From a virus: a DNA stretch of 37,957 nucleotides. Under the pieces are notes generated by a model that searched no databases, had not been told where the DNA came from, and saw only the letters and a list, made by a program, of their open reading frames with translations. Shown here in pieces: positions 1,306 through 25,300 of this stretch (its first letter is position 1; each line of letters starts with the position of its first letter). The position numbers and the translations under genes were made by a program. Location of the stretch: positions 1-37,957 of the IMG/VR virus record IMGVR_UViG_3300028372_000022. One strand, written 5' to 3'.

Positions 1306-1313
1306 TATTTATA
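1306..1313 (-). promoter_or_regulatory. Perfect T4-type late box TATAAATA overlapping the portal stop codon
   Basis: The minus strand reads ATATAAATACACATATG. TATAAATA is identical to the T4 late promoter consensus recognised by gp55. The TAA of the portal gene (1309-1311) lies inside the box. With T4 spacing (-13 to -6), +1 falls on 1300, the A of the downstream ATG. Confidence 0.7.
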
Positions 1314-3076: not shown

Positions 3077-6000
3077 TTAGTTTACGTTTCCTAATTCGTC
3101 GATTGCTCTGTATGACTTCCTGGTGTTTTCTCGTATTTCCTCAAGAATCCTTAATATGTCTCTTGTATTTACGTCATTCTCTGAATTAGACTTGTTAGTT
3201 TGGCCTAGGATATCACCAGCGTTCGTACCTTTGCCAGGAGTCCAACCGTTGTTATCTTTTGACAACTGGTCATTCATTCTTTCAAGAGCTTCTGTTAATT
3301 CGTCAATAGCTTCGGCATACTTTGAAACATTTTCAATATCAAGTTTTTTGATTCCGCCTCTCGTAGCGCCGCCACTGCCGGACATTCCACCATACACTGT
3401 TTGGAAGTCTTCAACTGCCTGCAAGTTATCTCTTAATCCTGTGATGTTAATATTTTCGTCAGCAAACTCTTGTAATTGTTCTAATGGAGAGTCAGAGAAC
3501 CAACCTGACATAGACTCGGATATTGATTCCATAACACCTGGAGACACAATATTTCCAACTGCTGACATGCCAGATGCATACGCTTTCAAAGCTAATACGT
3601 TGTTGTTAATCTGTTCAACTTGAGTGAAAGTGAACTTTTGGTTAGCAAATTCTTTTAATTTGTCAAGTGGGCCGCCTTCGTTAAGCCAACTTCCAATACC
3701 TTGGAGGATGGATCCTACACCGGATGTCGCTGTCCCGGAACCAAATGCTGCCATCCCTGTAGCGTAGGCTTTCATTGCTCTTGTGTTTAATTCAATCTGT
3801 GCAACCTGATCTTCTGTGATCTTTTGGTCAGCAAACTTTTGAAGTTTCTCTATAGGCGAGTCAGCGCCAGTAATCAAATCCCAGCCTTTGCCTGCTAGAC
3901 CGGCTATCTTGCCGAAGAAACCAACTACTTCGCCTGCTCCCATAGCTGCTAGGCCGCCGCCTAGCAGAAGCATACCTTCGCCGACTGCTTTCAGTTTTTC
4001 ACCGTCGATGTCTTCAAAAGATTCTAACCCTTTTGCAAACGTAGGCAACGTCTTTCCAATAATGAACGCGCCAGCGCCTATACCTGTTGCAATAGCAGTT
4101 ATAGCAAGAGCTAATTTGCCTGCGCCGATTACTATTCCAGGTTGTGCAAACGCAGCTAGTCCGTCTGCTATACCAGTAAGTAATCCGCCAGTTAATCCAC
4201 CAAGTAAGCCGCCAAGGCCGCTTCTAACTCCGCCGGAGCCGCCACCACCGCCACCGCCACCGCCTCCGCCGCCGGTGCCTCTGCCAGACAACATCTTTGC
4301 GCCTAACAGTGTTGCAACGCCGCCGACGAGTGCTCCTACTACTAAAGGATTATCCCATAGTGACTTTATCCCGCTAACCAGTGTATCTTTGATTGATGTC
4401 AGTATTATTGGCACATATTCTTTAATTTTTGCTTCAATTGAAGGACCTTTATCTTTTATAAACTTAATTGTAGTGTTCCACAGGTCACTAACCATTTCTA
4501 GGAACTTGTCTTTTATTGCTTGAACTGGGTTTTCTCTAAACTTTTCTAAGAAATCACTAAGCCCGCTCGAGAAAGATTGTAAATAGTGGTTTACTTTTTC
4601 CCAAACCTCTGGTGTGTTAACAACATCTAATAATGCCGTCATGCCTTCAGTAAATGTTTCAAGTATACCGCTGGTTTCAAATGCTGTGATCAATGCTGAT
4701 CTCACATTAGCAACAGTTTGCTTGAATTTAGCCATCATACTTGTAGAGCCACTTCGAGCATCTGTTTCTGTTTGGGCAGCCTCTGCATACTCTCTTATCA
4801 TTTCTTCTTGCTCTTTTCTAGTAGCGCGCATAAACTGTGCAAGGTTTATGCCAGTATCACTAAGCATTTTATTCATCATGCCCGGCACGCCTTCCATACT
4901 TGCTGAACCAAATTTTAGTATTTCGTACAAATTATCCGATTCGTCTAACAAGGTCATCATTGAGTTAGTCATACGATCGGTCATGCCGGCTGCGAACTCT
5001 TCTTCTGATACCGCTGCATTCTGAGTAGCATCGTACAAGTCACGGAGCTTATCGTTAGTCGACGACAGCACCGCAGCAAACAATCGAGTTTCCTCTGTCA
5101 TCGGAGGCATACCGAGAACCATTTCTTTGAATCTTGCAACAGCCGCTGGTCCTTGAGCTGCTGCTTCTAGCATACCTTGTTGTGTCTTGGCAGCTTCTTT
5201 AGGATCCATCTTCGATAGTGCCATCTGGTAGGCCAAGTCGTTTTGTTCTGCTTGTTGCTTGTCCTTTAATGTATCAACTGATTCACCAGTTAGTTTTGAC
5301 AAAGTTTGAAGTGATGCGGCATATTCAGCAGCTCGGTTAGCTACCTCTCTTTGGTTACGAGACTCAAGTCTGCCCTGCGATCGTGTTAAGTAAGCGTAGT
5401 CTACCATAGCTTCGTTAATTTCTTCAAAGCTGAAACCCATAGATAGCAAACGCTGTTGCTGATCGCCTAGCTGATTAGTTAGCCCTACCATTTGCTTTGC
5501 ACCGTTGGTAACAGTGCCGCCTAGGGCTGCTAGCTTGTCAGTATTTCTTACGATTAGTGCAGTAAAGTCTTCCAAAGGAACCCTTGCTGCTGCTGCCGTT
5601 AACCGTATTTCACTAAGACTGTTGTTAAATGCTGCACCAGACATTACTAATTGTTGGAACGACGCAAACGACTGATCGATGTACCCGGCCAACACCGACA
5701 ATGCTGATCCAAATATAGGAATGTGTTGAGTGAAATCTTGTAAGCTATCACCGCTGTCAAAAAACTGACCGGCCAGGCCTAACAAGCCTGTTGCAAAACT
5801 TGTTATCGACCTTGTTGCTAAACCCAAAGTTACTGCGTATTTTTCAGTGGCTTTGGTAGCTTTCTTAGTAGACTCTGTGTTCTTTTGCTTCTCTTCGGTA
5901 TTCTTTTTGGTCTTTTCGTCTAGCTCTACGATGGATTTTTTGTATTGTTCATTGGCTTTCTTAACAGCCTGGGCACTATCCTTGCCTGTCTTGTTGGCCA

Positions 6001-6094
6001 TTAGCTCCATTGTCGCTAAAAGTCGCTGAAGAGTTATTTCAGACGCTATACCTGCGTCGCCGCCGACGTTATCAATATTAACTGAGTCTACCAC
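3077..6094 (-). CDS. Tail tape measure protein (putative)
   Basis: 1005 aa, starting with GTG (6092-6094) behind AGGAA. Residues ~40-95 are a charged coiled coil (QYKKSIVELDEKTKKNTEEK). Residues ~95-150 are hydrophobic (SITSFATGLLGLAGQF). Then comes a long Ala/Gln/Glu-rich helical region to ~570, a hydrophobic stretch (VVGALVGGVATLLGA, ~587-602), a run of 12 glycines (608-619), and another Gly/Ala hydrophobic block (~625-685). The C-terminal third holds three related ~60-residue repeats beginning SPIEKLQKFADQK (~743), GPLDKLKEFANQK (~807) and SPLEQLQEFADEN (~867). This mix of long coiled coil, membrane-like segments and Gly/Ala tracts is typical of tape measure proteins, which set tail length and leave during DNA injection. 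It lies beside the gp26-like chaperone candidate. It shows no recognised similarity to T4 gp29, so the call is by architecture and context. Confidence 0.75.
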   Translation of the reverse strand: MVDSVNIDNVGGDAGIASEITLQRLLATMELMANKTGKDSAQAVKKANEQYKKSIVELDEKTKKNTEEKQKNTESTKKATKATEKYAVTLGLATRSITSFATGLLGLAGQFFDSGDSLQDFTQHIPIFGSALSVLAGYIDQSFASFQQLVMSGAAFNNSLSEIRLTAAAARVPLEDFTALIVRNTDKLAALGGTVTNGAKQMVGLTNQLGDQQQRLLSMGFSFEEINEAMVDYAYLTRSQGRLESRNQREVANRAAEYAASLQTLSKLTGESVDTLKDKQQAEQNDLAYQMALSKMDPKEAAKTQQGMLEAAAQGPAAVARFKEMVLGMPPMTEETRLFAAVLSSTNDKLRDLYDATQNAAVSEEEFAAGMTDRMTNSMMTLLDESDNLYEILKFGSASMEGVPGMMNKMLSDTGINLAQFMRATRKEQEEMIREYAEAAQTETDARSGSTSMMAKFKQTVANVRSALITAFETSGILETFTEGMTALLDVVNTPEVWEKVNHYLQSFSSGLSDFLEKFRENPVQAIKDKFLEMVSDLWNTTIKFIKDKGPSIEAKIKEYVPIILTSIKDTLVSGIKSLWDNPLVVGALVGGVATLLGAKMLSGRGTGGGGGGGGGGGGSGGVRSGLGGLLGGLTGGLLTGIADGLAAFAQPGIVIGAGKLALAITAIATGIGAGAFIIGKTLPTFAKGLESFEDIDGEKLKAVGEGMLLLGGGLAAMGAGEVVGFFGKIAGLAGKGWDLITGADSPIEKLQKFADQKITEDQVAQIELNTRAMKAYATGMAAFGSGTATSGVGSILQGIGSWLNEGGPLDKLKEFANQKFTFTQVEQINNNVLALKAYASGMSAVGNIVSPGVMESISESMSGWFSDSPLEQLQEFADENINITGLRDNLQAVEDFQTVYGGMSGSGGATRGGIKKLDIENVSKYAEAIDELTEALERMNDQLSKDNNGWTPGKGTNAGDILGQTNKSNSENDVNTRDILRILEEIRENTRKSYRAIDELGNVN
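4238..4273 (-). repeat. Poly-glycine (12 Gly) tract in tape measure gene
   Basis: Twelve consecutive GGN codons (GGC/GGT/GGA mixed), flanked by Thr and Ser-Gly-Gly. It forms a flexible hinge between two hydrophobic blocks. The mixed codons argue against recent slippage of a single unit, although a CCGCCA-type hexamer is repeated within it. Confidence 0.85.
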
Positions 6095-6120
6095 TATTAG
6101 AGTTCCTAATTATATACGCA

Positions 6121-6128
6121 CATAAATA
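6121..6128 (+). promoter_or_regulatory. Late promoter box (CATAAATA) for gp26-like gene
   Basis: The plus strand reads CACATAAATAGATATG. With T4 spacing +1 is near 6134, a leader of about 36 nt ahead of the ATG at 6170. It faces the minus-strand box at 6151-6158, so the two predicted transcripts overlap at their 5' ends by about 12 nt. Confidence 0.55.
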
Positions 6129-6150
6129 GATATGATACATAGTTGTATAG

Positions 6151-6158
6151 TATTTATC
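6151..6158 (-). promoter_or_regulatory. Late promoter box (GATAAATA) for tape measure-portal operon
   Basis: The minus strand reads TGATAAATACTATAC. With T4 spacing the start would be near 6145, giving a leader of about 51 nt to the GTG at 6094. It overlaps the ribosome-binding region of the divergent gp26-like gene. Confidence 0.6.
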
Positions 6159-10564: not shown

Positions 10565-11575
10565 TTAAAGCTCGTTGTAGATGTCTAACAGTAATTTCTT
10601 ATCAAAGTTGTCAGAGTCTATTGCTGTGATTTCATTTGACACAATCTGATCAACACTTTCAAAATGCTCAATGTCGATATCTGTAGAGATTTCCTCTACT
10701 TGCTTTTGCGGAATCAGCGTGATCTCTCTGCAATTATATTGCGAGATAAAAGTTTCTTTGATGAAACTTGCTTCTTCGTATGAGATAGGTACATCAATGG
10801 TTACTCGCAAGTACATCTTTGACTTGATAATGTTGTCTGTGTCGTCTAGCAGCTCAGAAAGTTTGATAGTACGATACTTGGGAGCATCAGGCCAATCCAA
10901 GAAGACAGGTTCTAGATCGTTTTCCTTGTCTAAGATCATCATACCTCTTGCATCATCCCATGCGTCTGCATAGTTGTGAGGAAAGGCATTGCCTATGTAA
11001 TGTATCTTACCTTTTTTCTGACGCTTGTGAAAGTGTCCTGAGAACACATAGTCTTGATGCTGAAAGTGTTGTGCTTTCAAGTCACCGTGATCTGGCATCT
11101 GTACCATAGCATTCATGTAAAAACTAGGAAGCTCAAAGTGACCAAACAAGTATTTTGCTTTTATCTTGGTCATTTGCTTCCACTCGTCGCCTACTAGCCA
11201 AGGTACAAGTGCCACGTCGTCTTTGACTGTGATTTCGTTCACAATCGTTACACCGGGAACGTGCCGTCCAAATTCTACAGAGTGAATGTCACGCTTGTCT
11301 TTGTAGTACAGGTCGTGGTTGCCAGGAAAAAAGAAGAACTGCTCAAAAGCTTCTCCTAATTTCTCTAGTATTCGCAGCGAGCTGTTCATAGTAGACACGT
11401 TCAAAGTGTTGCGATTATGATGATAATCGCCGCAAAAGATGCCGGTTTCGCAACCCGCAGCCTTTGCTTCAGCAATGTACCAATCAATAAATTCTTCACA
11501 GTCGCGGTTGTGAATCTTGGAATTACCTTTAAGTCCAAGGTGTAAGTCTGTGAAAACAGCAGCTTTTTTAAACAT
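10565..11575 (-). CDS. gp47: Recombination endonuclease subunit gp47 (Mre11/SbcD-like)
   Basis: 336 aa, the same size class as T4 gp47 (339). Calcineurin-like metallophosphoesterase motifs are in order: D10-L-H12, G49-D50-Y-H52, G85-N-H87-D88, GHFE, and SGHFHKRQ with its second metal-binding GHxH. It forms the nuclease of the gp46/gp47 complex, which makes 3' single-stranded ends for UvsX-driven recombination and replication. The ATG at 11575 is preceded by GGAGAAAAT. A sigma-70-like promoter sits in the 56-nt gap after gp55, allowing expression before late genes. Confidence 0.97.
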   Translation of the reverse strand: MFKKAAVFTDLHLGLKGNSKIHNRDCEEFIDWYIAEAKAAGCETGIFCGDYHHNRNTLNVSTMNSSLRILEKLGEAFEQFFFFPGNHDLYYKDKRDIHSVEFGRHVPGVTIVNEITVKDDVALVPWLVGDEWKQMTKIKAKYLFGHFELPSFYMNAMVQMPDHGDLKAQHFQHQDYVFSGHFHKRQKKGKIHYIGNAFPHNYADAWDDARGMMILDKENDLEPVFLDWPDAPKYRTIKLSELLDDTDNIIKSKMYLRVTIDVPISYEEASFIKETFISQYNCREITLIPQKQVEEISTDIDIEHFESVDQIVSNEITAIDSDNFDKKLLLDIYNEL

Positions 11576-11594
11576 ATTTTCTCCAATTTTTTAA

Positions 11595-11623
11595 AGTGTA
11601 CAGCACTAAGTCATTGATGTCAA
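11595..11623 (-). promoter_or_regulatory. Sigma-70-type promoter for gp47-gp46 operon
   Basis: Minus strand: TTGACA (11623-11618), a 17-nt spacer, TACACT (11600-11595). The -35 is perfect and the -10 keeps four of six consensus bases. The predicted start near 11588 leaves a short leader that includes GGAG before the gp47 ATG. Confidence 0.65.
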
Positions 11624-11631
11624 GCGATTTT

Positions 11632-12456
11632 TTAGTCAGTGCTATCGTCATTGCGTTTGACTTCTGCTTCCCACTGTCCTGCTTGCTGCCGTGTGTAGCT
11701 TGGAGTGAGGTCGTTCATCTCAAGAATATCGTCACGAATGTTTTGATTGCGCTTTTCGATATTGATAACTCGAACAAAGCTGTTGGTAACTGCGGCTGTA
11801 TAGTATGCAAAGGGGTTGTCTGACTTGCTTTCGTCAAACTGTAACCCGATCTGCGATAGCTGCAAGATAGCCTGCCCACGCATTTCGTCATTGTACGTAT
11901 AACCACGAACGTTGCCCCGGGTAGCATAGCGGTCACAAAGTTTCATCCACATCTTAGCAAGCTCGTTGGTTGCCTGTCCGTGTTCTCTGTCAAAATGACC
12001 TGTTTCCAAGTCCCCATTCCAGTGACTTTTACCAACTAGTCCAAGGTTGCCTTCGTCGTCAAATTTATAATGTTTAAACGGAGGGAAGTTTAGCTTGATC
12101 TTAGTGTCGGCTACTGTCTTTGGTGTGCGCTTCCGGCCTGGCGCATCGGGAATATGGTCAAATGCCATAACGCGGAACACAAGTTCTTCCGTCGTGATGC
12201 TGCTGGCTAAGGTTTCGCACTCTGCTTGCTTAACTTTTTCGCCTGCTAGCTTCCTTCTTTCGTATTCTTGTGAACTTAATCTTTTGGCTTTGTTTGCTTT
12301 AGCTTGCTCGATTACTTCGCCGTTGATTTCATCAGTAGAATTTAAGATAATATCATAACGGTTGTATTCGGGTTTTGTAAAGCTGCAAAAGGTGTTCTTA
12401 GATTTGTGTATCTGTGCTAAAATGTCTTTGTTGTTGAGATAGTTGCGTTTTTTCAA
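11632..12456 (-). CDS. gp55: Late-transcription sigma factor gp55
   Basis: 274 aa from a TTG start (12454-12456). An AGGAG (12463-12467) lies 6 nt upstream, and the protein then begins KKRNYLNNKDILAQIHKSK, the N-terminus I associate with marine-phage gp55. An in-frame ATG at 12513 would extend it by 19 residues but would run through both promoters. Conserved blocks: LVFRVMAFDHIP, VNFPPFKHY-like KLNFPPFKHYKF, and the sigma region-2-like ILQLSQIGLQFDESKSDNPF with NSFVRVINIEKRNQNIRDD. gp55 directs host polymerase to TATAAATA boxes. It is longer than T4 gp55 (185 aa) because of the N-terminal extension. Its C-terminus (EAEVKRNDDSTD) lacks an evident hydrophobic tail like the one T4 gp55 uses to bind the sliding clamp. 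Confidence 0.93.
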   Translation of the reverse strand: MKKRNYLNNKDILAQIHKSKNTFCSFTKPEYNRYDIILNSTDEINGEVIEQAKANKAKRLSSQEYERRKLAGEKVKQAECETLASSITTEELVFRVMAFDHIPDAPGRKRTPKTVADTKIKLNFPPFKHYKFDDEGNLGLVGKSHWNGDLETGHFDREHGQATNELAKMWMKLCDRYATRGNVRGYTYNDEMRGQAILQLSQIGLQFDESKSDNPFAYYTAAVTNSFVRVINIEKRNQNIRDDILEMNDLTPSYTRQQAGQWEAEVKRNDDSTD

Positions 12457-12476
12457 TAGCTTCTCCTGGCTTATAG

Positions 12477-12484
12477 TATTTATA
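12477..12484 (-). promoter_or_regulatory. Perfect late box TATAAATA for gp55, abutting the sigma-70 -10
   Basis: TATAAATACTATAAG on the minus strand, starting at the base right after TATAAT. With T4 spacing +1 is 12471, a 15-nt leader to the TTG. It implies positive autoregulation of gp55 once made. Confidence 0.75.
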
Positions 12485-12513
12485 ATTATAATACACGCGG
12501 TTAATTTTGTCAA
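12485..12513 (-). promoter_or_regulatory. Consensus sigma-70 promoter for gp55
   Basis: Minus strand: TTGACA (12513-12508), a 17-nt spacer, TATAAT (12490-12485): a full consensus match. The start is expected near 12478, about 22 nt upstream of the TTG, leaving room for the AGGAG. Confidence 0.85.
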
Positions 12514-12520
12514 CTAAATA
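12513..12520 (+). promoter_or_regulatory. Late box (ACTAAATA) for the baseplate operon
   Basis: AACTAAATACTTG on the plus strand. +1 near 12526 with T4 spacing, then GGAG (12533-12536) and the ATG at 12546. It shares its first base with the -35 of the divergent gp55 promoter. Confidence 0.6.
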
Positions 12521-12545
12521 CTTGATATAATTGGAGATTATTTTA

Positions 12546-13460
12546 ATGGCAACGAATCCCTACAATGATACACCAGGCCCACCAGGCAATAAAAGACGCC
12601 AACAGGTAGATCAAGACAAGCTAGACTCGCTTTTTCCGCCTACGTCAAGTGTGTCAGAGTTTATTGGCGACACGTTCAACAGCGGTATCGACACAGCAAA
12701 GGAGTTTGCTAGCGAAATAACCTCATCTTTTGGCCTTGCCAAAAAATCACGAAGCAAGAGTATACCAACGTCAGCTACACAAAAGTCTAAAGGCACAGCA
12801 ACAGCGCAGTGGCGAAACACTATTGAGAATCCAGACTGGCGAGTTAAACTTAGTCTGCCTACTCAGTTTACTGCTGACAAGTTACTTGCTCCGCTAGCAG
12901 AAAACAGCGGTCTGGTATTTCCTTATACTCCGACAATCATTCTAGGCCACAGTGCAAATTACAATAGTTTACAGCCTGTACACACAAATTATCCGTTTCA
13001 ACTCTACGAAAATAGTAGTGTACAGGAAATAGTTATTACTGGCGACTTCACTGTAGAGAACGAAAGTGACGGTCGTTATTGGATAGCAGCAATTCATTAC
13101 TTACGAAGTGTTACAAAAATGTTTTATGGCAACGGTGAAAATTCCGGACAGCCGCCACCAAGGGTCTTATTAAACGGCTACGGTGATTTTGTGTTTAACA
13201 ACGTCCCTTGCGTAGTAACAAATTTTACAGTAGACTTACCGTCTGATGTAGATTATATTGCTGTTCCTATGAACGTAACGGCACCACTTGCTGGTGACGG
13301 TCGTTCTGGCAACAACGGTCAAGGCACTGCTTGGGTTCCGAGCTCTAGTCTTATTACTGTTACTGTGATGCCTACTTACAGTAGGTCAGCGGTATCTAAG
13401 TTTAACCTAAACGACTTTGTAAACGGGTCGTACATAACCAAAGGCGGAGGCTTTATCTAA
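12546..13460 (+). CDS. gp48-like baseplate / tail tube cap protein (putative)
   Basis: 304 aa; the start at 12546 follows TTGGAGATT, so an upstream in-frame start at 12531 inside the leader is rejected. The first ~90 residues are Pro/Ser/Lys-rich linker. The folded part starts near WRVKLSLPTQFTADKLLAPL, continues with GLVFPYTPTIILGHSANY, VHTNYPFQLYENSSVQEIVI, HYLRSVTKMFYGNG and PSDVDYIAVP. This series is recognisable in the structural protein that marine T4-like phages list as gp48, which caps the baseplate and starts tube assembly. It opens the baseplate operon and overlaps gp53 by 1 nt. Similarity to T4 gp48 itself is not obvious to me, so the name depends on marine homologues and context. 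Confidence 0.6.
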   Translation: MATNPYNDTPGPPGNKRRQQVDQDKLDSLFPPTSSVSEFIGDTFNSGIDTAKEFASEITSSFGLAKKSRSKSIPTSATQKSKGTATAQWRNTIENPDWRVKLSLPTQFTADKLLAPLAENSGLVFPYTPTIILGHSANYNSLQPVHTNYPFQLYENSSVQEIVITGDFTVENESDGRYWIAAIHYLRSVTKMFYGNGENSGQPPPRVLLNGYGDFVFNNVPCVVTNFTVDLPSDVDYIAVPMNVTAPLAGDGRSGNNGQGTAWVPSSSLITVTVMPTYSRSAVSKFNLNDFVNGSYITKGGGFI

Positions 13461-13762
13461 TGGCAAAGTACGCACCAACTAGTCCATGGGCAGACACAAG
13501 AATTACCAACCTCGGAGCACTTGACGTGTTGACAATACGTGCTGTTCCTGCAGAAAGCGATGATGCAAAATATACCTTAGAAACCCAGTACACTTATCGT
13601 CCAGATTTATTAGCATACGACATTTACGGGTCACCGAAATTATGGTGGGTTTTTGCACAGCGTAACATGGACGTAATTAAAGATCCAGTGTATGATATGG
13701 TTGCAGGAACTACAATATATCTGCCTAAAGCAGATACGTTAAAAGACCTTTTAGGAATATAA
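13460..13762 (+). CDS. gp53: Baseplate wedge protein gp53 (LysM-like)
   Basis: 100 aa. YTYRPDLLAYDIYGSPKLWW followed by VFAQRNMDVIKDPVYDMVAG and TIYLP is the gp53/LysM-like signature of T4-type baseplates. It is shorter than T4 gp53 (196 aa) but usual for marine relatives. gp53 joins neighbouring baseplate wedges around the hub. The ATG overlaps the upstream stop (TAATG) and the stop abuts the next ATG without a gap, so translation is coupled through three genes. Confidence 0.85.
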   Translation: MAKYAPTSPWADTRITNLGALDVLTIRAVPAESDDAKYTLETQYTYRPDLLAYDIYGSPKLWWVFAQRNMDVIKDPVYDMVAGTTIYLPKADTLKDLLGI

Positions 13763-16477
13763 ATGTCAAGAGTAGACAGAATTCAAGAGAATAAAGCAAG
13801 AACGCTATCCCAGTTAACTGGGTCTGATAACACTGACACGTCAGGTGTGCGCCCAGGTCAATTCCCAGCTTCTTCGAGCGATGTTGATAACAACGACGAC
13901 ATAAGAGTCATTGACTCAATAGGAGACACGCTATCTGATGTATCAACTGGAATAAGTTCAGCAGCGTCGTCTGCTTTTACGTCGTTGAAGGATTTTGGTA
14001 GCGGCATCCTTTCAACCAAAAGTAAAGAAGAACGTGCAAACGAGTTTAAAAACAAAAAAACTAGTTCAACAAGACCAGGTAACAGTGCCACAATAGATCC
14101 TACAACGAAATCTTCAGGACCGTATTCGGGCGGAACGTCTGCTAAGATCTCAATGAGAGATGCGTTATCTAACGGAATCCCTTCTGCGGACACAGAGGAG
14201 AAAAATCCGCCAGGCGCCAATAATTCAATACCGAATCAGTTAGAAGACTTCGCAACTTATAATTGCGTGTTTACACTAGGAGTACTATCACCTAGCAGTA
14301 TAAATGATCCACAGAACAGTTACAGAAAGAAAGGAGCAACCTACACTATCTTGCGTTCTGGTGGTGGCGGGATCGACCAGAACCGAATTACAAATGGATT
14401 TGAACTTGAGGGAAATTTAGAATATTTTATTGATGACTTTAGTATGGAGTCTATACTCAGTCCTAACCAAAAAACAGGTATTGCTCTAGGTACTAGAATA
14501 TCGTTTAAGGTCCATGAGCCTTATAGTTTAGGTATTTTTTTACAGAGTTTAGAAATTGCAGCAATAAAAGCAGGCTATAAAAATTACCTTAAAGCTCCTT
14601 ACTTACTCGAACTTAATTTCTTTGGATGGGACGAGTTTAATAATGCAAGGCCAGTAGATTATGCAAGCAGAAAATTACCTCTTCAATTGAAAAGTGTTGA
14701 GTTTGATGTCGACAGCGGCGGCTCAGTTTATACAGTAGAAGGAGTACCGTGGAACGAACAGTCGTTCACTGACGAAGTCCAAAGAATTAAAGACCCAGTT
14801 GAAATACGAGGCGCATCAGTTGCAGAAGCACTTTCTTTCGGTGAACAGAGTTTAACGGCAATTATTAACCAGAAGCAACGAGAAATAGCAGAAAAAGATT
14901 CGCTGCCAATTAACGACCTGTACGTAATTAGGTTTCCAAAGTCAAGGGTCAAAGCCGGAACGGCAGGAAGTAGTCCAACCGACAATTTAAGTGCTACAGT
15001 AAGCAAAGAAGATTCCTCAAATAGCTCTGTTATAAGCACCGACCAGTTTAAAAGTCGTATAGGAGACTACTTTAATTCTGCTGGGCAGCAAGCCAATAAC
15101 AACATATACCAGACGTTAGTTGGCGAGTCAACTACTGATGTTAACAAGATTGGCAGCAGCAAGATGGTTGAAGATTATAATCAAGGCAGCAATCATCCGT
15201 TTCCACGAAGCCTGTATACTTACGATGAAGAAACACAGGTATACAGTCGTAAAGGTATTGAACTAAGCCTAAGCGACGACGAGCGTGTCTTTAAATTTCC
15301 ACAAGGAATGACTATACAAAAAATTATTGAAGAGATAGTTCTTATCAGTAATTACGGAGCAAACGCTACTAAAGCATTAGATAAAGAAGGCATGGCGACT
15401 TGGTTTAAGGTCGAGACAGAGTGCTATATTCTTGACAGCGTTGAAGTTGAAGAAGCAATAGGTAGAAAGCCTAAGGTATTTGTGTATAACGTTGTTCCTT
15501 ATAGAGTAAACGGTGCTATTACTGGGGCGCCGAACAAAGGTAATCCAGGCGCTGCAGAACGAGAAAAGCAAGTATCTAAAAGATACAGCTACATTTACAG
15601 CGGTGAAAATAAAGATATCCTCAGCTTTGATATTCAGTTTAGAACAGCATTTTTTGAAACAATAAGAGCAGACCGTGGCGACGAACAATATTCACAGTCT
15701 AGAAACCAAGAAGATGAGAAAACAGAGAAAGGTGTTGATAATTCGCCGGGTGATATAGACCCGGCGTACAGTGTTGAAACCGTTTCCGAAACAGGCTTGT
15801 ATATAGGCGGCGGAAGCGAAACAAACGCTAAGATAAACTTAGCAAAACAGTTTCACAATACACTGCTAAACAGTAACGCAGACTTAATTACTGCTAACGT
15901 AGTAATATGGGGAGATCCGTATTACCTGCCAGACAGCGGCATGGGGAATTATTCATCAAGGAATAGTGGACTGAAGGCTACTTTGACAGAAGACGGATCT
16001 ATAGACTATCAACGAAACGAAGTTGACGTATTAATAAACTTTAGAACGCCGGTAGACTATAAACCAACCGGCGAAATGTCCTTCCAGTCTGATACAACTA
16101 CAATTAACGGATTTAGTGGCTTTTATAAAGTAACTAGAGTAGAGTCGACTATTAGCAGAAACAAGTTTACTCAGTCATTAGAGCTCATACGTCGCAGAAA
16201 CCAGTCACTCGACGGTATCGGAGGCAACTCTATTGTCGAAAAGCAGAACCCTTCGACAGGTAACACTACCGCCGGACGTCCAGGACAAACTGGATCAGCA
16301 ACACCGTCAGGCAGAACAAGTAGCGGCCCTGGAGCAGCCGGCGCATTGGCAGCCGAACAAGCCGCTGATGAACAAGCTGCAACAATACCGCCTAAGCCTG
16401 ACAATGCTCCTATAAGCGTCAGGCCAGGTCAGAGTCCGAGTGGCACAAGACCAGTAACACGCCCTGGTCAAGGATAA
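13763..16477 (+). CDS. Large baseplate hub-region structural protein (gp27-position, VrlC-like annotation in relatives)
   Basis: 904 aa. A low-complexity N-terminus (1-150, Ser/Asp/Gly), then a structured core from ~150: NQLEDFATYNCVFTLGVLSP, FELEGNLEYFIDDFSMESIL, FKVHEPYSLGIFLQSLEIAA, YLLELNFFGWDE, and later SYIYSGENKDILSFDIQF and NVVIWGDPYYLPDSG. The C-terminal ~75 residues are Gly/Pro/Ala linker. The motif RPGQ occurs four times at the two ends (VRPGQFP, GRPGQTG, VRPGQSP, TRPGQG), plus one RPGN. Marine T4-like phages carry a protein here that is often called VrlC. Lying directly before gp5, and with no other gp27 candidate in the window, it may be the gp27 hub equivalent. That is positional inference; no gp27 motif was recognised. 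Confidence 0.6.
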   Translation: MSRVDRIQENKARTLSQLTGSDNTDTSGVRPGQFPASSSDVDNNDDIRVIDSIGDTLSDVSTGISSAASSAFTSLKDFGSGILSTKSKEERANEFKNKKTSSTRPGNSATIDPTTKSSGPYSGGTSAKISMRDALSNGIPSADTEEKNPPGANNSIPNQLEDFATYNCVFTLGVLSPSSINDPQNSYRKKGATYTILRSGGGGIDQNRITNGFELEGNLEYFIDDFSMESILSPNQKTGIALGTRISFKVHEPYSLGIFLQSLEIAAIKAGYKNYLKAPYLLELNFFGWDEFNNARPVDYASRKLPLQLKSVEFDVDSGGSVYTVEGVPWNEQSFTDEVQRIKDPVEIRGASVAEALSFGEQSLTAIINQKQREIAEKDSLPINDLYVIRFPKSRVKAGTAGSSPTDNLSATVSKEDSSNSSVISTDQFKSRIGDYFNSAGQQANNNIYQTLVGESTTDVNKIGSSKMVEDYNQGSNHPFPRSLYTYDEETQVYSRKGIELSLSDDERVFKFPQGMTIQKIIEEIVLISNYGANATKALDKEGMATWFKVETECYILDSVEVEEAIGRKPKVFVYNVVPYRVNGAITGAPNKGNPGAAEREKQVSKRYSYIYSGENKDILSFDIQFRTAFFETIRADRGDEQYSQSRNQEDEKTEKGVDNSPGDIDPAYSVETVSETGLYIGGGSETNAKINLAKQFHNTLLNSNADLITANVVIWGDPYYLPDSGMGNYSSRNSGLKATLTEDGSIDYQRNEVDVLINFRTPVDYKPTGEMSFQSDTTTINGFSGFYKVTRVESTISRNKFTQSLELIRRRNQSLDGIGGNSIVEKQNPSTGNTTAGRPGQTGSATPSGRTSSGPGAAGALAAEQAADEQAATIPPKPDNAPISVRPGQSPSGTRPVTRPGQG

Positions 16478-16485
16478 GGATTATA

Positions 16486-18363
16486 ATGCCAAGAGAAACT
16501 AGAAGTAGCGCATATCGGTCGTTAAAAGAACTTGGATTTACCGGGTCCGGGCCATTTGAAGCAGTTGTCGTAAGCCACCTTGATCCTGGTTATATGGGCT
16601 CTCTCAAAGTTGATTTATTGCGTAAAAATAAATCAGGGTCGTTCAAGGAAAGAGCAGGTACTACTATAGATGTTAGCTACCTAAGTCCTTTCTACGGTGT
16701 TACGAACAAGGATCACGCCACGGCCAATGACGGATACGAAAACACACAAAAGTCATATGGCATGTGGATGGTTCCGCCTGATTCAGGAACACGAGTTCTT
16801 GTAATTTTTGCTGAGGGCGACATCTCTCGAGGCTATTGGATCGGATGCATACAAGACCAGTACATGAACTTCATGGTTCCTGATGGCAGGGCTAGCACAG
16901 AGGTTACAACAGAAGGGACCCCCGGCGACCTTAAAGGAAAGAAACTACCAGTAGGTGAGTACAACAAACGTACTACATCTGAAAACAAAGACCCTACATT
17001 ATATGCAAAGCCTTACAATACAGATTTTTCTGCATCACTTGTAGCGTCAGGTCTGATAGATGACGAGAATAGAGGAACGACAACTACCAGTGCACGACGT
17101 GAAGTGCCTAGTGCTGTATTTGGTATTAGCACTCCTGGGCCTATCGATAAACGACAAGGCGCGCTAAAGGGACAGTACGGTGAGTTCGAAGCAAAAGCCA
17201 ACGTCTTTGTTAACAGACTGGGTGGCTCTAGTTTTGTAATGGATGACGGCGATGATAAGTTTATTCGCAAAACCCCAGCAAGCGAAGGCCCTCCTGAATA
17301 TTCAAATGTTGAAAAAGGTGAAACTGCCGGCGACCGTACTATTCCTCAAAACGAAGTATTTAGGTTGCGTACCAGAACTGGTCATCAGATTCTTATGCAT
17401 AATTCTGAGGATTTAATCTACATAGGTAATGCTCGTGGCACGTCGTGGATTGAGCTGTCTAGCAATGGTAAGATAGATATTTACGCTAATGATAGCATAA
17501 GTGTGCATTCAGATCAAGACATAAATTTCACTGCTGACAGAGATATGAATATTGAAGCAGGTCGCAATATAAACATGCGTGCTAGAGGACGTGATAAAAA
17601 AGGCGAAGATCTACCAGATGGCGGCAATATTCAAATGGAAAGCAAGAAAGATACACACATTCTTGTTGAAGAAAATATGAAAGTAGATGTAAAAATGCAG
17701 CAGGACACTACAGTTGGCGCAGATCGTTTCCTTACTGTAGTAGGTGATATGCATACAAAAGTTGATACATCTATCTTCGAATTAGCAGCTACTGACATTA
17801 ATAAGAAAGCAGGCGCAAACATTAATATTGAATCAGGCGCAAATACTAATTCTCTTTCCGGAGCAGCAACAAACCTAGAAGCAGGAGCAGTGTTTAATGC
17901 TCTAGCTGGAGCCGCAATGAATCTTAATAGTTCAGCTGGGACAAATATTCTAAGTGACGGAATAGTTGCTATAGACGGGTCTCTAACACACCTTAACAGT
18001 GGGCTCGCAGGGCCAGCAGCGCCAGCATCACCTGCAATAGACGCACAGCCTGCAACGGTGTTTGAGCCGCTCTTAGTGCACACTAACAGCCAGATACTTC
18101 CTGAAGATATGTCTAAAGTAACAGTAGAATCGATAGTAAAACGGATGCCGAGTCACGAACCGTGGGCACAGCACGAGAACCTAATGCCCAAGGACTTTCT
18201 GCCAGAAAAAACTGATATAACTGTTGCGGCACCTATTGAAGATGCAGAGTATATCAAGTCTACAGACACGTTTAGAAAGAACCGAACCACGGCAGGAACC
18301 GGAGTAGGAATTGCTGCTCAGTCAAGCCAACAAGACGAGAAAAGCATACCGAGTAGAGGCTAA
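16486..18363 (+). CDS. gp5: Baseplate hub spike protein gp5 without lysozyme domain
   Basis: 625 aa, with AAGGAT before the ATG. OB-fold (~15-150): GPFEAVVVSHLDPGYMGSLK, MWMVPPDSGTRVLVIFAEGD, GYWIGCIQDQYMNFMVPDG. A linker of ~150-300 is too short and lacks T4-lysozyme motifs, so the catalytic domain of T4 gp5 is absent, as in many marine relatives. From ~315 to ~525 there are short alternating repeats such as DINFTADRDMNIEAGRNINM, the triple-stranded beta-helix of the VgrG/gp5 needle. The C-terminal ~100 residues (WAQHENLMPKDFLPEK onward) form an extra tail. A trimer at the tail tip punctures the outer membrane. Its TAA is part of the late box for gp25. Confidence 0.92.
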   Translation: MPRETRSSAYRSLKELGFTGSGPFEAVVVSHLDPGYMGSLKVDLLRKNKSGSFKERAGTTIDVSYLSPFYGVTNKDHATANDGYENTQKSYGMWMVPPDSGTRVLVIFAEGDISRGYWIGCIQDQYMNFMVPDGRASTEVTTEGTPGDLKGKKLPVGEYNKRTTSENKDPTLYAKPYNTDFSASLVASGLIDDENRGTTTTSARREVPSAVFGISTPGPIDKRQGALKGQYGEFEAKANVFVNRLGGSSFVMDDGDDKFIRKTPASEGPPEYSNVEKGETAGDRTIPQNEVFRLRTRTGHQILMHNSEDLIYIGNARGTSWIELSSNGKIDIYANDSISVHSDQDINFTADRDMNIEAGRNINMRARGRDKKGEDLPDGGNIQMESKKDTHILVEENMKVDVKMQQDTTVGADRFLTVVGDMHTKVDTSIFELAATDINKKAGANINIESGANTNSLSGAATNLEAGAVFNALAGAAMNLNSSAGTNILSDGIVAIDGSLTHLNSGLAGPAAPASPAIDAQPATVFEPLLVHTNSQILPEDMSKVTVESIVKRMPSHEPWAQHENLMPKDFLPEKTDITVAAPIEDAEYIKSTDTFRKNRTTAGTGVGIAAQSSQQDEKSIPSRG

Positions 18364-18366
18364 ATA
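18359..18366 (+). promoter_or_regulatory. Late box (GCTAAATA) fused to gp5 stop, for gp25
   Basis: GCTAAATACTACTATG: the gp5 stop TAA (18361-18363) lies in the box. With T4 spacing +1 falls on 18372, the A of the gp25 ATG. No Shine-Dalgarno is present. Confidence 0.55.
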
Positions 18367-18371
18367 CTACT

Positions 18372-18824
18372 ATGAGCTCATTAGAGAAGAATCTTTACAA
18401 AAGAGTACAATCCAAGCGAGAGGGTGGAGCAGCAGCAACACGTTCTGTTCCTAATACCGTCTACCGCGGCCTTAGCACAGTCAATCCGGAAAACGACGGG
18501 TTCCGTCTGTATGACGTTGCTATAATCAAACAAGATTTGATTAATCATTTTAATATTCGCCAAGGTGAAAAGTTAGAGAATCCTGAATTCGGAACTATCA
18601 TTTGGGAAGTTCTTTATGAGCCCCTTACAGAAGCACTTAAACAGGTTATTATCGAAGACGTTGAAACTATTATTAACAGTGATCCAAGAGTTGCGGTAGA
18701 CAGAGTTATTGTCGACGATTATTTTAACGGCCTACAAATCGAGTGTGTTCTTACCTTCCTAGATTACAACATCTCTGAGCAGCTTCGCTTCCAATTCGAC
18801 GAAGCTAATGGATTAATTGCGTAA
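18372..18824 (+). CDS. gp25: Baseplate wedge protein gp25
   Basis: 150 aa (T4 gp25 is 132). The lysozyme-like fold family core is visible: IIKQDLINHFNIRQGEKLEN, PEFGTIIWEVLYEPLTEALK, and a C-terminal strand (LTFLDYNISEQLRF). The WEVLYEP stretch corresponds to the conserved EPR-type region of gp25, which binds gp6/gp53 and the first sheath ring. The residue usually Arg is Leu here (YEPLT). The ATG at 18372 has no Shine-Dalgarno and is only 5 nt after a late box. Confidence 0.92.
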   Translation: MSSLEKNLYKRVQSKREGGAAATRSVPNTVYRGLSTVNPENDGFRLYDVAIIKQDLINHFNIRQGEKLENPEFGTIIWEVLYEPLTEALKQVIIEDVETIINSDPRVAVDRVIVDDYFNGLQIECVLTFLDYNISEQLRFQFDEANGLIA

Positions 18825-18847
18825 TAATATACGCGGTTTTCTCTTTC
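18819..18847 (+). terminator. Weak terminator-like hairpin at gp25 end
   Basis: GCGTA (18819-18823) pairs with TACGC (18830-18834) across a 6-nt loop, followed by GG and a T-rich TTTTCTCTTT. The gp25 stop codon is in the hairpin. The short 5-bp stem makes it a weak or leaky terminator in front of the gp6 promoter. Confidence 0.35.
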
Positions 18848-18848
18848 A

Positions 18849-18856
18849 AATAAATA
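18849..18856 (+). promoter_or_regulatory. Late box (AATAAATA) for gp6
   Basis: AAATAAATACTACG on the plus strand. +1 near 18862 with T4 spacing, followed by GAGGAAA (18869-18875) and the ATG at 18879. Confidence 0.65.
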
Positions 18857-18878: not shown

Positions 18879-21800
18879 ATGTCAGCCACAGATAGACAGA
18901 ATCGATTACTGGTAGCAGAGGACTGGAAAAGAGTATACCAGACCTTCCGTAATGCAGATTTTCAGAGTTACGATTTTGACAATCTAAGACGCACAATGAT
19001 TTCTTACTTGCGTGAGAACTATCCAGAAGACTTCAACGATTATATTGAATCGTCGGAGTACCTTGCGCTAATTGATCTAATTGCATTCCTAGGACAAAAC
19101 CTATCGTTTCGTATAGATCTAAACGCTAGAGAAAACTTTTTAGAACTTGCTGAACGTCGTGAAAGTGTACTGCGTCTTGCAAGACTTATTAGCTACAATC
19201 CAAGCAGAAACCAAGCAGCTAACGGCTTCTTAAAGTTTACTGCCGTGCGTACATCAGAAGATCTTATTGATAGCAACGGCATTAACCTCAAAGGGCAATC
19301 GATCCAATGGAACGACAGCACCAACGCCAACTGGTTTGAACAATTTATTAAGGTAATCAACACTGCACTTCCTCTCAATGGTGTATTTGGCCAGCCTGAC
19401 AAAAAAGAAGACGTTGCAGGTATTCCTACCGAACAGTATCGAGTTAATGGGTTGAACACAACTGTTCCAATTTATAGCTTCCAGAAAGCGGTTGAAGGGA
19501 AAAGCACTCCGTTTCAGATTGTGCCTACCGATATTGTTGACGGTAATTTAGTTGAAGAACCGCCGCTTGCTGGCAATAACTTTTCATTCATTTATAAAAA
19601 TGACGGCCGCGGTCCAAGCAGCACAAACTCTGGATTCTTTGCTCATTTCCGCCAGGGCATACTTGACAATGGTCAGTTTACGGTTACACAGCCAGTGGCA
19701 AATCAAACTGTTGCTGTTGACACAACTAACATCAACGACACTGACGTCTGGCTTTATAAGCTAGATGCAAACGGCAACGAACAAGAGCTATGGACTAAAG
19801 TAGCCAGTGTTGAAGGCAATAACATTATCTACAATAGCATCAACAACAATATTAGAAATGTGTTTAGTGTTTTAACCAGAGTTGATGACAGAATTAACTT
19901 GATCTTCTCTGATGGGGTATTCGGTGAATTGCCAAAAGGTAACTTTAGAACCTACTACCGCGTTAGTGAAAACAGAAGTATGATTATTACTCCTGCGGCA
20001 CTATCAGGTATTAACTTTAGTATACCGTACCTAAGTAAGCAAGGTAAACAAGAAGAAATTACATTTACTGTTAGTCTGCAGACCACGGTATCAAACTCAA
20101 CAGTAAGCGAGACTAACGCTAGTATTAAAGCTAATGCTCCTGCTACTTATTACACTCAAAACAGAATGATTACTGGTGAAGATTACAACGTAGCTCCTTT
20201 AGCAGTAAGTCAAGAGATTGTAAAAGTTAAGAGTGTTAACCGTACATCAAGTGGTATTTCGCGTTACTTTGACTTAATAGATGCAACCGGAAAATACAGT
20301 AGCACTAACTTATACGGCAATGACGGCATTGTTTATAAAGAATTTATTGATAGAACTACATCGTTTTCCTTCCAAACTCAAACCGACATTGAAGGTGTTG
20401 TAATTAACGAAATCGAACCTATTTTTAAAGACAAAAGAGTGAATCACTTTTACTTCGATAGATTTCCTGAGATTAATGCAGTTGACTTAAATGTTTACTG
20501 GGTATCGGCGACTAAAGACACTAATACATTTACAGGATTTTTAAGTAACAACGAAACAACGCCTGAGGATGGATATCAACGGGTAGGAAGTTTTACTTCG
20601 ACTAGTCTTCGTTATGTAAAAGCCGAGAGCTTACTAAAGTTTGTAGCACCAGCCGGACAATACTTTGATAAAAACAATGCGTTGAAGATAGGTTCGCCTA
20701 GTGATGTAGGGCACAAAACCGTACTTTGGACCAAAGTTTTTAACATTGCAGGCAATGGTGTTGACCAGCTAATTACAACTACATCTGGTGCTATAGCACT
20801 TAGTGACGATATCCCACAAGGTGCAATTCTAACAGAAATACGTCCTAAGCTAGCAGGATCGTTGCTTGACGATGTTAAACGCCAACTTATTGATCAGACG
20901 TTTGCCTACAATAACTTCGGATTAAGATTTGACGTAGAAGATCAGCGGTGGAAGTTAATTAAGGCATCTAACCTAAACGCCAGCGGTGATTTCAACACTG
21001 GTTTTGCTGGAGACACAAGTGGCCAAGGCCTTGATGCTAGCTGGCTAATCAAGTTTGAAACATCTGGTGAAAGGTATAAAGTTTTTTATCGTGGGCTAAG
21101 GTATGTTTTTGAAAGCGACGAAGAGATCAGATTCTTCTATGATTCGACTGATAAGATTTTTGATAGCCGAACCGGCAAAATTATTAAAGACAAAATCACA
21201 GTATTAAACATTAACAAGCAACCTGACAATCCGTCTCCGTTTACAAATGATTTTACTTGGGAGGTTTTGTCTGAGTATAGAGACAAAGAAGGTTATGTAG
21301 ACAGTACCCGTGTTGAACTTACGTTCTTTGACAGCGACGAAGACGGCGTAGTTGATGACCCTGACTTGTTTGAAGACATAGTAGCACCTGATTATGTTGA
21401 TCCGGAAACAGGGCTTACAACAGTCGTAGATAAAAAGACTGTTATACAGGAAAAGTATATCACGTCAGCAGGAACTGAAGACTTCCGTTATGTTAACGCT
21501 GAAGCCACCGGTATTAGTTTATATAGATCAGAGAGTGCGCCGGCTGTGCCTTTGGCTAGTGAAAGAGCCAGCGGCGCCATTTATTATTTCCTTGACGTAG
21601 ATTTGTTTAAGATCTGGGATACTAATACAATGACGTTTTCTATAACAAATGATTACAAGGCGTTTACTGGCAGAGATATGCTAAAATTCCAGTATGTACA
21701 CACTGCGGATTCGAACAATAGAATTGATCCAAGTGCTAGTAATATTATGGATACATACTTACTAACAAGAGGTTACGACAGACAATATAGACTTTTCCTA

Positions 21801-22388
21801 GACGGGCAGTTGACAAATCGTCCCCTACCGCCTAGTTCAGATCAACTGTTTAGATCGTTTGGATCTAAACTGAATCAGATTAAGTCAATAAGCGATGAAG
21901 TGATTTATCATCCGGTTAAGTACAAAGTACTATTTGGCCCAAAGGCGAACGGAGATTTGCAAGCAACATTTAAAGCAGTTAAGAACCCAGATCAAGTGTT
22001 AAACGATAACGATATCAAAACACGTATTATTGGTCTTGTAAATCAATATTTTGCAATTGAAAACTGGGACTTCGGCGACACATTTTTCTTCCAAGAACTA
22101 GCTACATTTGTAATGAACAGAATGGCGCCAGACTTGGTTACATTTATTATTGTACCAAATCAGGTAGAGCAAGGATTTGGCAGCTTATTTGAAATACGCT
22201 CAGCACCAGACGAAATTTTTATTAGTGGCGCAACGGTAAACGACGTTCTTCTAATAGACGAAATAACAGCTTCGCGCTTAAATGCAAACGGCAAGGTTGT
22301 TACAACATCAGATATATCAACAAACAAAGGATTACAAAGTACTCCGTCAGTTGGTACACTCAACAGCACAGGGGGTTTTAGTTACTAA
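18879..22388 (+). CDS. gp6: Baseplate wedge protein gp6
   Basis: 1169 aa; T4 gp6 is 660, and marine relatives are longer. N-terminal gp6 blocks: WKRVYQTFRNADFQSYDFDN, FNDYIESSEYLALIDLIAFL, GQNLSFRIDLNARENFLELA, RRESVLRLARLISYNPSRNQ. C-terminal region: VKYKVLFGPKANGDLQATFK, RIIGLVNQYFAIENWDFGDT. gp6 dimers form the iris-like ring round the hub that triggers sheath contraction. The insert includes FFDSDEDGVVDDPDLF near residue 818, a D-x-D-x-D-G loop like EF-hand or thrombospondin type 3 calcium sites. Own late promoter and a GAGGAAA ribosome site. It overlaps the giant gene by 1 nt. Confidence 0.95.
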   Translation: MSATDRQNRLLVAEDWKRVYQTFRNADFQSYDFDNLRRTMISYLRENYPEDFNDYIESSEYLALIDLIAFLGQNLSFRIDLNARENFLELAERRESVLRLARLISYNPSRNQAANGFLKFTAVRTSEDLIDSNGINLKGQSIQWNDSTNANWFEQFIKVINTALPLNGVFGQPDKKEDVAGIPTEQYRVNGLNTTVPIYSFQKAVEGKSTPFQIVPTDIVDGNLVEEPPLAGNNFSFIYKNDGRGPSSTNSGFFAHFRQGILDNGQFTVTQPVANQTVAVDTTNINDTDVWLYKLDANGNEQELWTKVASVEGNNIIYNSINNNIRNVFSVLTRVDDRINLIFSDGVFGELPKGNFRTYYRVSENRSMIITPAALSGINFSIPYLSKQGKQEEITFTVSLQTTVSNSTVSETNASIKANAPATYYTQNRMITGEDYNVAPLAVSQEIVKVKSVNRTSSGISRYFDLIDATGKYSSTNLYGNDGIVYKEFIDRTTSFSFQTQTDIEGVVINEIEPIFKDKRVNHFYFDRFPEINAVDLNVYWVSATKDTNTFTGFLSNNETTPEDGYQRVGSFTSTSLRYVKAESLLKFVAPAGQYFDKNNALKIGSPSDVGHKTVLWTKVFNIAGNGVDQLITTTSGAIALSDDIPQGAILTEIRPKLAGSLLDDVKRQLIDQTFAYNNFGLRFDVEDQRWKLIKASNLNASGDFNTGFAGDTSGQGLDASWLIKFETSGERYKVFYRGLRYVFESDEEIRFFYDSTDKIFDSRTGKIIKDKITVLNINKQPDNPSPFTNDFTWEVLSEYRDKEGYVDSTRVELTFFDSDEDGVVDDPDLFEDIVAPDYVDPETGLTTVVDKKTVIQEKYITSAGTEDFRYVNAEATGISLYRSESAPAVPLASERASGAIYYFLDVDLFKIWDTNTMTFSITNDYKAFTGRDMLKFQYVHTADSNNRIDPSASNIMDTYLLTRGYDRQYRLFLDGQLTNRPLPPSSDQLFRSFGSKLNQIKSISDEVIYHPVKYKVLFGPKANGDLQATFKAVKNPDQVLNDNDIKTRIIGLVNQYFAIENWDFGDTFFFQELATFVMNRMAPDLVTFIIVPNQVEQGFGSLFEIRSAPDEIFISGATVNDVLLIDEITASRLNANGKVVTTSDISTNKGLQSTPSVGTLNSTGGFSY

Positions 22389-25300
22389 TGGCTAACACTG
22401 ACCAGAACGATTTTCCACTACCAGCAGGTGGTGAGCAGGACAGGAAGAGCGCAAACCTTCTACCTAAGTATTTTAGAACTCAAGCCAACGAAAAGATTTT
22501 AGGTAGTACTTTAGATCAAATGGTCCAGCCGGGTATTGCTGAAAAAATCTCGGGATTCTACGGCCGTCAAACTGCGAAAGCATACCAGTCAGACGACACG
22601 TATATCGAGGATATCAGCGAGCAAAGGCAAAACCGCCAACTAGAGCCGGCTTCTGTAGTTAAAGATGATTTAGGCAACGTTGAGTTCTTTAGTGATTATC
22701 CTGACTTTATTAATCAAATCAGTGCGTTTAGCGGTGATGTTTCTAATCACAGTAAACTAAACACCCAAGAATTTTATGCTTGGAATCCTAACGTAGATTG
22801 GGACAAATTAGCAAACTTTCGCGAGTATTTCTGGCTACCTAATGGCCCACAAACTGTTAGCGTCTTCGGTCAATCCCAAGAGGTTACCAGTACTTACAAA
22901 GTAACAATCCAAGACCAGGGCGATAATACTACGTACAAGTTCTCAAATAGACTTGCAGCCAACCCAGTTCTTACTTTGTATAGAGGACAGACGTATAGGT
23001 TTGAGATAGATACTCCAGGGTTCCCTATTGCTTTTACGGTTGACAGAAACTATACAACTCCGGATCCGGATGAAGAGAGCGAAAACGTATCAAGCGAATA
23101 TATCAAAGGACAAAAGTTTTTTGACGCAGACGGTAACGAAGTTGATCCGCAGTATATTGAAAACGGTGTAATTGAATTTACAGTACCGTTGCAAGCGCCT
23201 GATCACTTATTTTACCTTAGTGAAAGCGATATCAATACAGGCGGCTTCATTAAGATTTTTGATATTGAAGAGAACACTGCAATTGATGTTGGACAGGAAA
23301 TTTTAGGGAAGTCGACATATACAAGTGCTAACGGTGTAACGTTAACAAATGGTCTTAAAGTAACATTCTTAGGTAATGTTACTCCGGAGATATACGGCAC
23401 CGGTGATTGGTACGTAGACGGCGTAGGTACTGAAATAAGACTAGTGAGCGAAGCTGCACTTTTGGTTCCAGCAGGATACGCTGACGATGTTCTTGTTCCT
23501 TGGGGTTCAGGAAGATGGGATAGATTGCCATTTGATAATGCTAGTAGCTTTGCTGGTACTAAAGATTATATTGTTGTCAACCGAGTCAGCGCTGACAGAA
23601 ACCCGTGGTCACGTTATAACCGTTGGTTCCATTCTAGCACAATTGCAGCCGCAGCAGGTTATAATAACGTTGCTGAGGAGTTAGATCAGTCAGCCCGTGC
23701 AACTCGTCCTATTATTGAATTCGACCCAGGTCTAAGACTGCATAATTACGGCACCGAAGCAAAGAATGACGTTGACCTTGTAGACGACTTTACATTAGAT
23801 GTATTTTCAAATGTCGAAGGCCAACTTGGTTACAACGTCGATGGTGTTCCTTTGACACAAGGACAGCGAGTATTATTTGCTGCTGATCCTGACAAGCGTG
23901 TTAATGGTAAAATATACCGAGTTACTTTCTTAAGAGTTAACAATAGAAACCAGATTTCTTTGATCGAAGAACCAGATTGTGACCCTATAGAGGGCGAAGT
24001 TGTATTGGTTACTAACGGCAACGAAAACGCAGGTAAGTTTTACTGGTATAACGGAACAACTTGGAAACTAGCACAAGAAAAAACTGAAAATAACCAATCA
24101 CCTCGTTTTGAACTATACGACAGTGCTGGTAATGCATTCAGCGACACTGTTGTTTATGAAGAATCATCATTTACAGGTAATACTGTATTTGAATATAAGC
24201 AAGGCACTGGCTCACTGGACCCTGAGTTAGGATTTCCACTAAGCTACAGAACAATCGAAAACGTAGGCGATCTACAATTTAACTTCTCTCTTGTAAACGA
24301 GAGCTTTGTTTATAGTATCGACCAGACGTTGTACACTAAGAATACTGATATCGGATATCTAAGAAGGTATACTGATTTAAACACGTTTACTGTGCAGAAC
24401 GGTTGGGCAAAAACTAATAAGTCAAGTACCCAAGCAGTTATTAGACAGTACATTGTTGAAGAACCAACAGACAGATTTGAAATAGATGTCTATGATCGCA
24501 GTAGTTCTATACAAGATTTAGAAGTTAAAGTTGTTCTTGACCAGGACTATCAATTACTAGATGTTGATTATACAATCGACCGCAGTGAGCAAACTGCCGC
24601 GATTGTGTTCAACAGCGTATTGCCTGTTGATTCAAATGTCATTTTAAAAGTAAAAAGTGATACATCGAAGAACGACAACGGTTATTATGAAATGGCATAT
24701 AACCTAGAAAGGAATCCGCTTAACAATAACATCGGAGAATTCACTCTAGGCGAAGTAAACGATCATGTAAGAACAATTGTAGAAAACGTTAGAGGATTCA
24801 GCGGCAAGTTCCCTGGAACTAACAACTTGCGGGACTTAGGCCAGTTAGACGCGTTCGGTCGACGTTTTGTGCAGCACACCGGCCCGCTTAACCTTGCAAG
24901 TTACCACATTACAAACAAAGAAGCAAACATCATTAAGGCACTTCGTTTTAATCGATCAGAGTATGCAAAATTCAAAAGAGTGCTTCTTCAAACTGCTGAA
25001 GATTTAGGGTTCGACGGTACACCAAAGCAACAGCTTGATCTGACATTGAGTCGAATTAATGCAAGTAAAACTCCAGCAATGCCGTTCTACTTCACAGATA
25101 TGCTGTGCGCAGCCGCATCACGTACTTTAGAGTATAAAGTGCCAGCGGGCGGCGAAAACTTCTATGCATTGTCTGAACCGTTTACATTAGACGAGTTAAG
25201 CGCCAAGTCTGTTCTTGTGTATCTAAATTCAGAGCAGTTGGTACACGGACGAGACTATACATTTAGCAACGAAGGGTTTGTTGATATAAGTGCAGACTTA

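Follow-up and report, generated by a model that had tools for sequence, protein, structure and literature searches.

A Candidate Early-to-Late Switch of Back-to-Back Promoters Between the Late Sigma Factor Gene and the Baseplate Operon of Marine T4-Like Phages

Results

The gp55 Locus and Its Promoter Elements

The window, that is, the whole stretch of DNA analyzed here, is the 37,957-bp viral record IMGVR_UViG_3300028372_000022 of IMG/VR and belongs to a T4-like phage whose gp55 is of the jumbo-phage type. The genes of portal gp20, gp46, gp47, gp55, and the baseplate were recognized in it. Judged by profile matches, the minus-strand gene at 11632–12456 is a true gp55 relative and a member of the late sigma factor family, as its product matches PHROG 12791 over the full length (E 6e-83) and, with residues 157–260, PHROG 234 (E 2e-22), both of late sigma factors. 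The open reading frame list starts this gene at the TTG at 12513, which falls within the promoter. A DNA-level search of phage records with positions 11500–13500 of the window gave no match. The features of the locus are as follows:

11632–12456, minus: gp55-type late sigma factor gene, 274 aa, TTG start at 12456
12463–12467, minus: AGGAG, ribosome-binding site of gp55, from sequence
12477–12484, minus: TATAAATA in gp55 orientation, a possible lineage-specific late box, abutting the -10
12485–12490, minus: -10 TATAAT of the gp55 promoter (TATAAT in 75 of 78 relatives), predicted start near 12478
12507–12491, minus: 17-bp spacer (17 in 77 of 78 relatives)
12508–12513, minus: -35 TTGACA of the gp55 promoter (TTGACA or TTGACT in 78 of 78 relatives)
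12513–12520, plus: ACTAAATA, divergent late box, predicted start near 12526
12533–12536, plus: GGAG, ribosome-binding site of the divergent gene, from sequence
12546–13460, plus: first baseplate operon gene, ATG at 12546, encoding a virion structural protein (PHROG 12050)
13460–18824, plus: further baseplate genes of the same operon, from profile matches

The perfect TTGACA-17-TATAAT upstream of the ribosome-binding site and start codon of gp55 is the only one in the whole window (0.07 expected). It is contiguous with TATAAATA on the minus strand (12513 to 12477), and ACTAAATA begins at 12513 on the opposite strand; the sequence-only reading had located all of these elements exactly. The CTAAATA core of ACTAAATA (12514–12520, plus strand) directly adjoins the -35 of gp55. 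A plus-strand TATAAT at 12526–12531, noticed by eye, is without a good -35 and was set aside.

Conservation was examined by laying side by side the upstream regions of 80 gp55 relatives from IMG/VR, which are 70–84% identical in their best segment and were taken with their flanks. Of these, 78 were usable for the promoter elements and 79 had enough upstream DNA for TATTTAGTTGAC. The sigma-70 core together with the divergent CTAAATA is kept in 77 of the 79. Ahead of gp55, 77 of the 79 also carry TATTTAGTTGAC, the exceptions being L077 and L078, and in all 17 larger records (up to 138 kb) this string is found in exactly one place. In 63 distinct sequences, the core TATTTAGTTGAC...TATAAT is invariant, while the flanks on both sides vary, a contrast that speaks for selection in addition to recent descent. 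The predicted start of gp55 by host polymerase, as claimed from the sequence alone, is supported by the perfect sigma-70 match and its conservation, as is the predicted late promoter for the baseplate operon, whose divergent box is also kept in 16 of 16 isolates (see below). As separate observations, a further sigma-70-like promoter lies beyond the conserved fused site, on its downstream side, in L016 and L028, and L077 has lost the fused site upstream of gp55.

The Same Locus in Isolated Jumbo Phages

Sixteen sequenced isolates, including PA5oct, 121Q, RaK2, CBB, GAP32, BF, and Munch, have the same type of gp55. The gene divergent from gp55 in these phages encodes a structural protein, except in Phosso and Atu_ph07, where it encodes a nucleotidyltransferase. 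As in the window, CBB, GAP32, RaK2, 121Q, Munch, PA5oct, and their kin have gp55–gp47 divergent from a structural gene and the gp53-like wedge gene. The motif [AC]TAAATA was found in every one of the 16 isolates, always on the divergent strand and never facing gp55.

The distance between the box and the gp55 -10 is 26–28 bp in 11 of the 16 isolates, versus 23 in the marine group. The -35 regions of the isolates are unlike those of the marine group, for instance GGAACG or GAAACG in CBB, GAP32, BF, XbC2, and XaC1. Atu_ph07 has a nearly marine sequence, TAGTTAATTTGTCAACTAAATA, in which CTAAATA and TTGACA are kept and the TATAAT 17 bp further on is absent. The predictions published for CBB include ATAAATA as a late motif and a promoter immediately upstream of gp55 (PMC5259590). 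No transcript map of PA5oct was found in the literature searched, the coverage of which was incomplete.

An inverted repeat is located between the -10 and the gp55 start in CBB, GAP32, BF, XbC2, Munch, fENko, 121Q, Hallingskeid, and XaC1 (records L202, L205, L209, and L211–L216). Its arms change and its loop remains similar, e.g., TAAAAC-AAGGATC-GTTTTA and GGTACA-AGGAT-TGTACC, and it is a possible RNA control hairpin. A repeat of this type was not seen in the window.

The Late Box of the Marine Group

In a k-mer count before the genes of ten records, with no motif assumed beforehand, ATAAATA was the top 7-mer (60 vs 0.9 expected). CTAAATA was counted 18 times versus 1.0 expected, and many of these are the gp55 site itself. 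The boxes are oriented toward the gene and lie mostly 16–30 nt, or exactly 4–5 nt, from the start codon. According to these counts and positions, a T4-type late box is real in the marine group and CTAAATA is its minority form. The latter accounts for 12% of the boxes in the group, yet it is nearly fixed at the gp55/baseplate site.

The divergent CTAAATA of the window is placed 25 nt before the ATG at 12546, inside the 16–30 nt range of late boxes, and the relatives keep it. At -12 it has C, where the consensus has A. This, together with the fact that CTAAATA always abuts the -35, would agree with a different role, namely as an extended -35 or an activator site in the upstream portion of the sigma-70 promoter, with the baseplate operon starting elsewhere. 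We consider this very improbable. The block, read as TATTTAG on the other strand, was rejected as a general extended -35, being found once per genome and absent from the other sigma-70 promoters of the same genomes. In L078, CTAAATA is exchanged for the canonical AATAAATA, which has A at -12 and overlaps a -35 that is kept; such a swap in nature speaks for a function of the block in late transcription and against one for sigma-70. Moreover, all 16 isolates, whose promoter sequences are different, have a late box on this strand, and CTAAATA is the predicted late consensus of the Aeromonas phage Aeh1 (PMC1524935). Aeh1 differs in that CTAAATA is its consensus, whereas in the marine group it is a minority form nearly fixed at one site.

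Several further observations concern the late boxes in general. Boxes exactly 4–5 nt before an ATG are found in the window at 1306–1313 (minus) and 18359–18366 (plus) and at about 20 sites in related records. The late box of T4 occupies -13 to -6; with the same geometry, these boxes would give leaderless late mRNAs starting at the ATG. Counted without gene calls, 14 of 155 ATAAATA words are followed by an ATG at 5 nt, whereas 20 permuted control words give an expectation of about 2.4. Genome-wide in nine related records, ATAAATA is scarce, as though it were kept out of DNA other than promoters: it occurs 155 times, whereas words permuted from its letters average about 417.

Between the head gene at 3077–6094 and the hub gene, the late boxes CATAAATA (plus) and GATAAATA (minus) face each other at 6121–6158. 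They overlap motif X, described below, and the same pairing exists in several related records.

The Possible Late Box Facing gp55

According to the sequence-only reading, sigma-70 starts gp55, and its own product then maintains it from TATAAATA, with the sigma-70 start falling inside this late box. In the window, TATAAATA occurs three times versus 2.2 expected, i.e., at chance frequency, so position and conservation carry the weight. Its position speaks for a function: an exact TATAAATA followed by C precedes the start codon by 20 nt, as is normal for late boxes. For RB49, S-PM2, and Syn9, early and late promoters that overlap have also been proposed (PMC2984593); there, like in the TATAAT-TATAAATA pair of the window, early and late elements precede one gene. 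Unlike in those phages, the pair that is conserved here is opposite in direction and serves two operons.

Conservation points the other way. The exact TATAAATA after the -10 is limited to the window and its two nearest kin, L002 and L003 (3 of 78), and the next relative, L004, has AGTAAATA in its place. NATAAATA in any form follows the gp55 -10 in 15 of 77 relatives, being absent in 62, and no box faces gp55 in any of the 16 isolates; the trait requires at least seven changes on the gp55 tree. Among distinct leaders, NATAAATA is still commoner than composition predicts: it occurs in 9 of 56, whereas column shuffling gives an expectation of 3.7 (P = 0.005) and a Markov model one of 4.5 (P = 0.035), an excess from which phylogeny was not removed in either case.

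Most relatives lack the element on which self-activation would depend, an absence that the sequence-only reading had itself named as a refutation, and with the box of all isolates on the divergent strand, gp55 driving its own gene as a general feature is unlikely. The early part of that reading, the nearly invariant sigma-70 promoter, is what the relatives retain. The proposed self-activating late box is, by this comparison, a lineage-specific extra. Given its normal distance to the start codon, TATAAATA may still work in the window's own lineage and add a late gp55 start there.

Motif X

Several positions of the sigma-70 spacer that are dispensable for sigma-70 are nearly fixed in the relatives. 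They form a sequence close to ATTAASTRCGYASTTAAT, named here motif X, which in the relatives also precedes the late box of the baseplate wedge gene. The respective features of the window are:

12487–12506, no strand assigned: motif X (about ATTAASTRCGYASTTAAT), located in the sigma-70 spacer and, counted from the divergent late promoter, at -39 to -21
18823–18841, plus: motif X, second copy, before the wedge gene
18849–18856, plus: AATAAATA, late box of the wedge gene
18879–22388, plus: wedge gene, with AATAAATA upstream
6108–6126, plus: motif X, third copy, overlapping the late box CATAAATA at 6121–6128

The wedge gene is followed by a single open frame of 4504 residues at 22388–35902.

When a matrix was trained on the wedge sites only, the gp55 site was among the best genome-wide matches in most of the ten records. 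The strongest matches of the motif X matrix are mostly intergenic, and 93 of 234 matches were intergenic versus 33–52 of about 245 with permuted matrices. Motif X precedes the late box with an offset of 26 nt at gp55 (76 of 77), at the wedge gene, and at a gene of 387 aa, and in 74 of 77 its start is 7 nt past the first T of the -35. Elsewhere it overlaps the box, e.g., at 6108–6128.

The same late-box distance before the gp55-site and wedge boxes suggests a regulator. From these positions, a regulator site is the best reading of motif X, and an upstream part of some late promoters is a less likely one. Its dyad symmetry is suggestive only, with 4.6 of 9 pairs versus 2.7 in shuffled sequences at the wedge promoters and with other axes equal at gp55. 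A perfect palindrome, TTAASTACGTASTTAA, was set aside, since among the matches listed in viral contigs it occurs at about chance level by a rough estimate. Motif X and the exact fusion are the marine group's own, with a partial copy in Atu_ph07.

These data also bear on the view that the two promoters are independent, close to each other through short intergenic space and without meaningful competition, motif X and the abutment being inherited. Phage intergenic regions are compact, and with no linker between two required elements, the spacing is changeable by insertion only; the fixed abutment could be inherited geometry and not selected competition. Against this stand the near fixation of spacer positions that sigma-70 does not need and the recurrence of motif X at other late promoters with the same offset. 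Distant isolates with other -35 sequences also retain a similar gap between the box and the -10. On balance, independence of the two promoters seems doubtful.

Discussion

The arrangement is best explained, with reasonable though not high confidence, as an early-to-late switch of two back-to-back promoters, an early one for gp55 and a late one for the baseplate operon, of which one probably closes as the other opens. The host sigma-70 polymerase would first, early in infection, read gp55 leftward from TTGACA-17-TATAAT, with a start near 12478. Later, gp55 would replace sigma-70 on the polymerase, and the late enzyme would open CTAAATA (12514–12520) and read the baseplate operon rightward from about 12526. 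The two starts, 48 bp apart, are predicted from knowledge of T4 and sigma-70.

With the late box abutting the -35 and with starts at this distance, the two polymerase complexes would overlap in their upstream parts and should exclude each other, and late firing at the divergent box would tend to close the promoter of gp55 itself. The competition between two forms of polymerase, which had been placed between the sigma-70 start and TATAAATA, should thus exist, but the conserved contest is that of the sigma-70 promoter with the divergent late promoter. This favors gp55 shut-off over self-activation, and shut-off once the gp55 product opens the baseplate promoter is the likeliest consequence. While the elements, their conservation, and their geometry are observed, the exclusion, the direction of the feedback, and the protein binding motif X are what we infer.

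A protein bound to motif X would prevent use of the gp55 promoter and could also modulate the late one. More tentatively, and as a combined proposal that we hold as possible rather than probable, motif X would bind a regulator not described so far, from phage or host, by which the switch is thrown. It would block the sigma-70 promoter of gp55 from within the spacer, act on the divergent baseplate late promoter, and control the wedge and head/hub late promoters, which would unite the late sigma gene with a subset of the late operons in one regulon.

As in T4 (PMC2988020), the window has a TATAAATA-type box at the -10 position, read by a gp55-type sigma factor. It differs from T4 in that the box is NATAAATA with a minor CTAAATA form, in the divergence of gp55 from the baseplate operon with a fused early promoter, and in that some late promoters have motif X upstream, whereas those of T4 have no conserved -35 sequence (PMC2988020). 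The single pieces are known, and the divergent fusion with a shared spacer motif is a variant; in the literature searched, with incomplete coverage, no description of such a fusion was found.

To our knowledge, little is known outside T4 about the timing and switch-off of the late sigma factor in T4-like phages. The late system of T4 is described with the late box, gp55, gp33, and the clamp, and motif X would add a regulator to it. Pfam models of gp33 and gp45 had no match in nine partial records, where the controls were equally silent. The group concerned is a large and widespread one of uncultured marine T4-like phages; the looser layout in isolates that grow on laboratory hosts makes the proposal testable there. 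If the layout works as proposed, the occupation of a single site of about 50 bp would couple rising transcription of late structural genes to declining gp55 synthesis.
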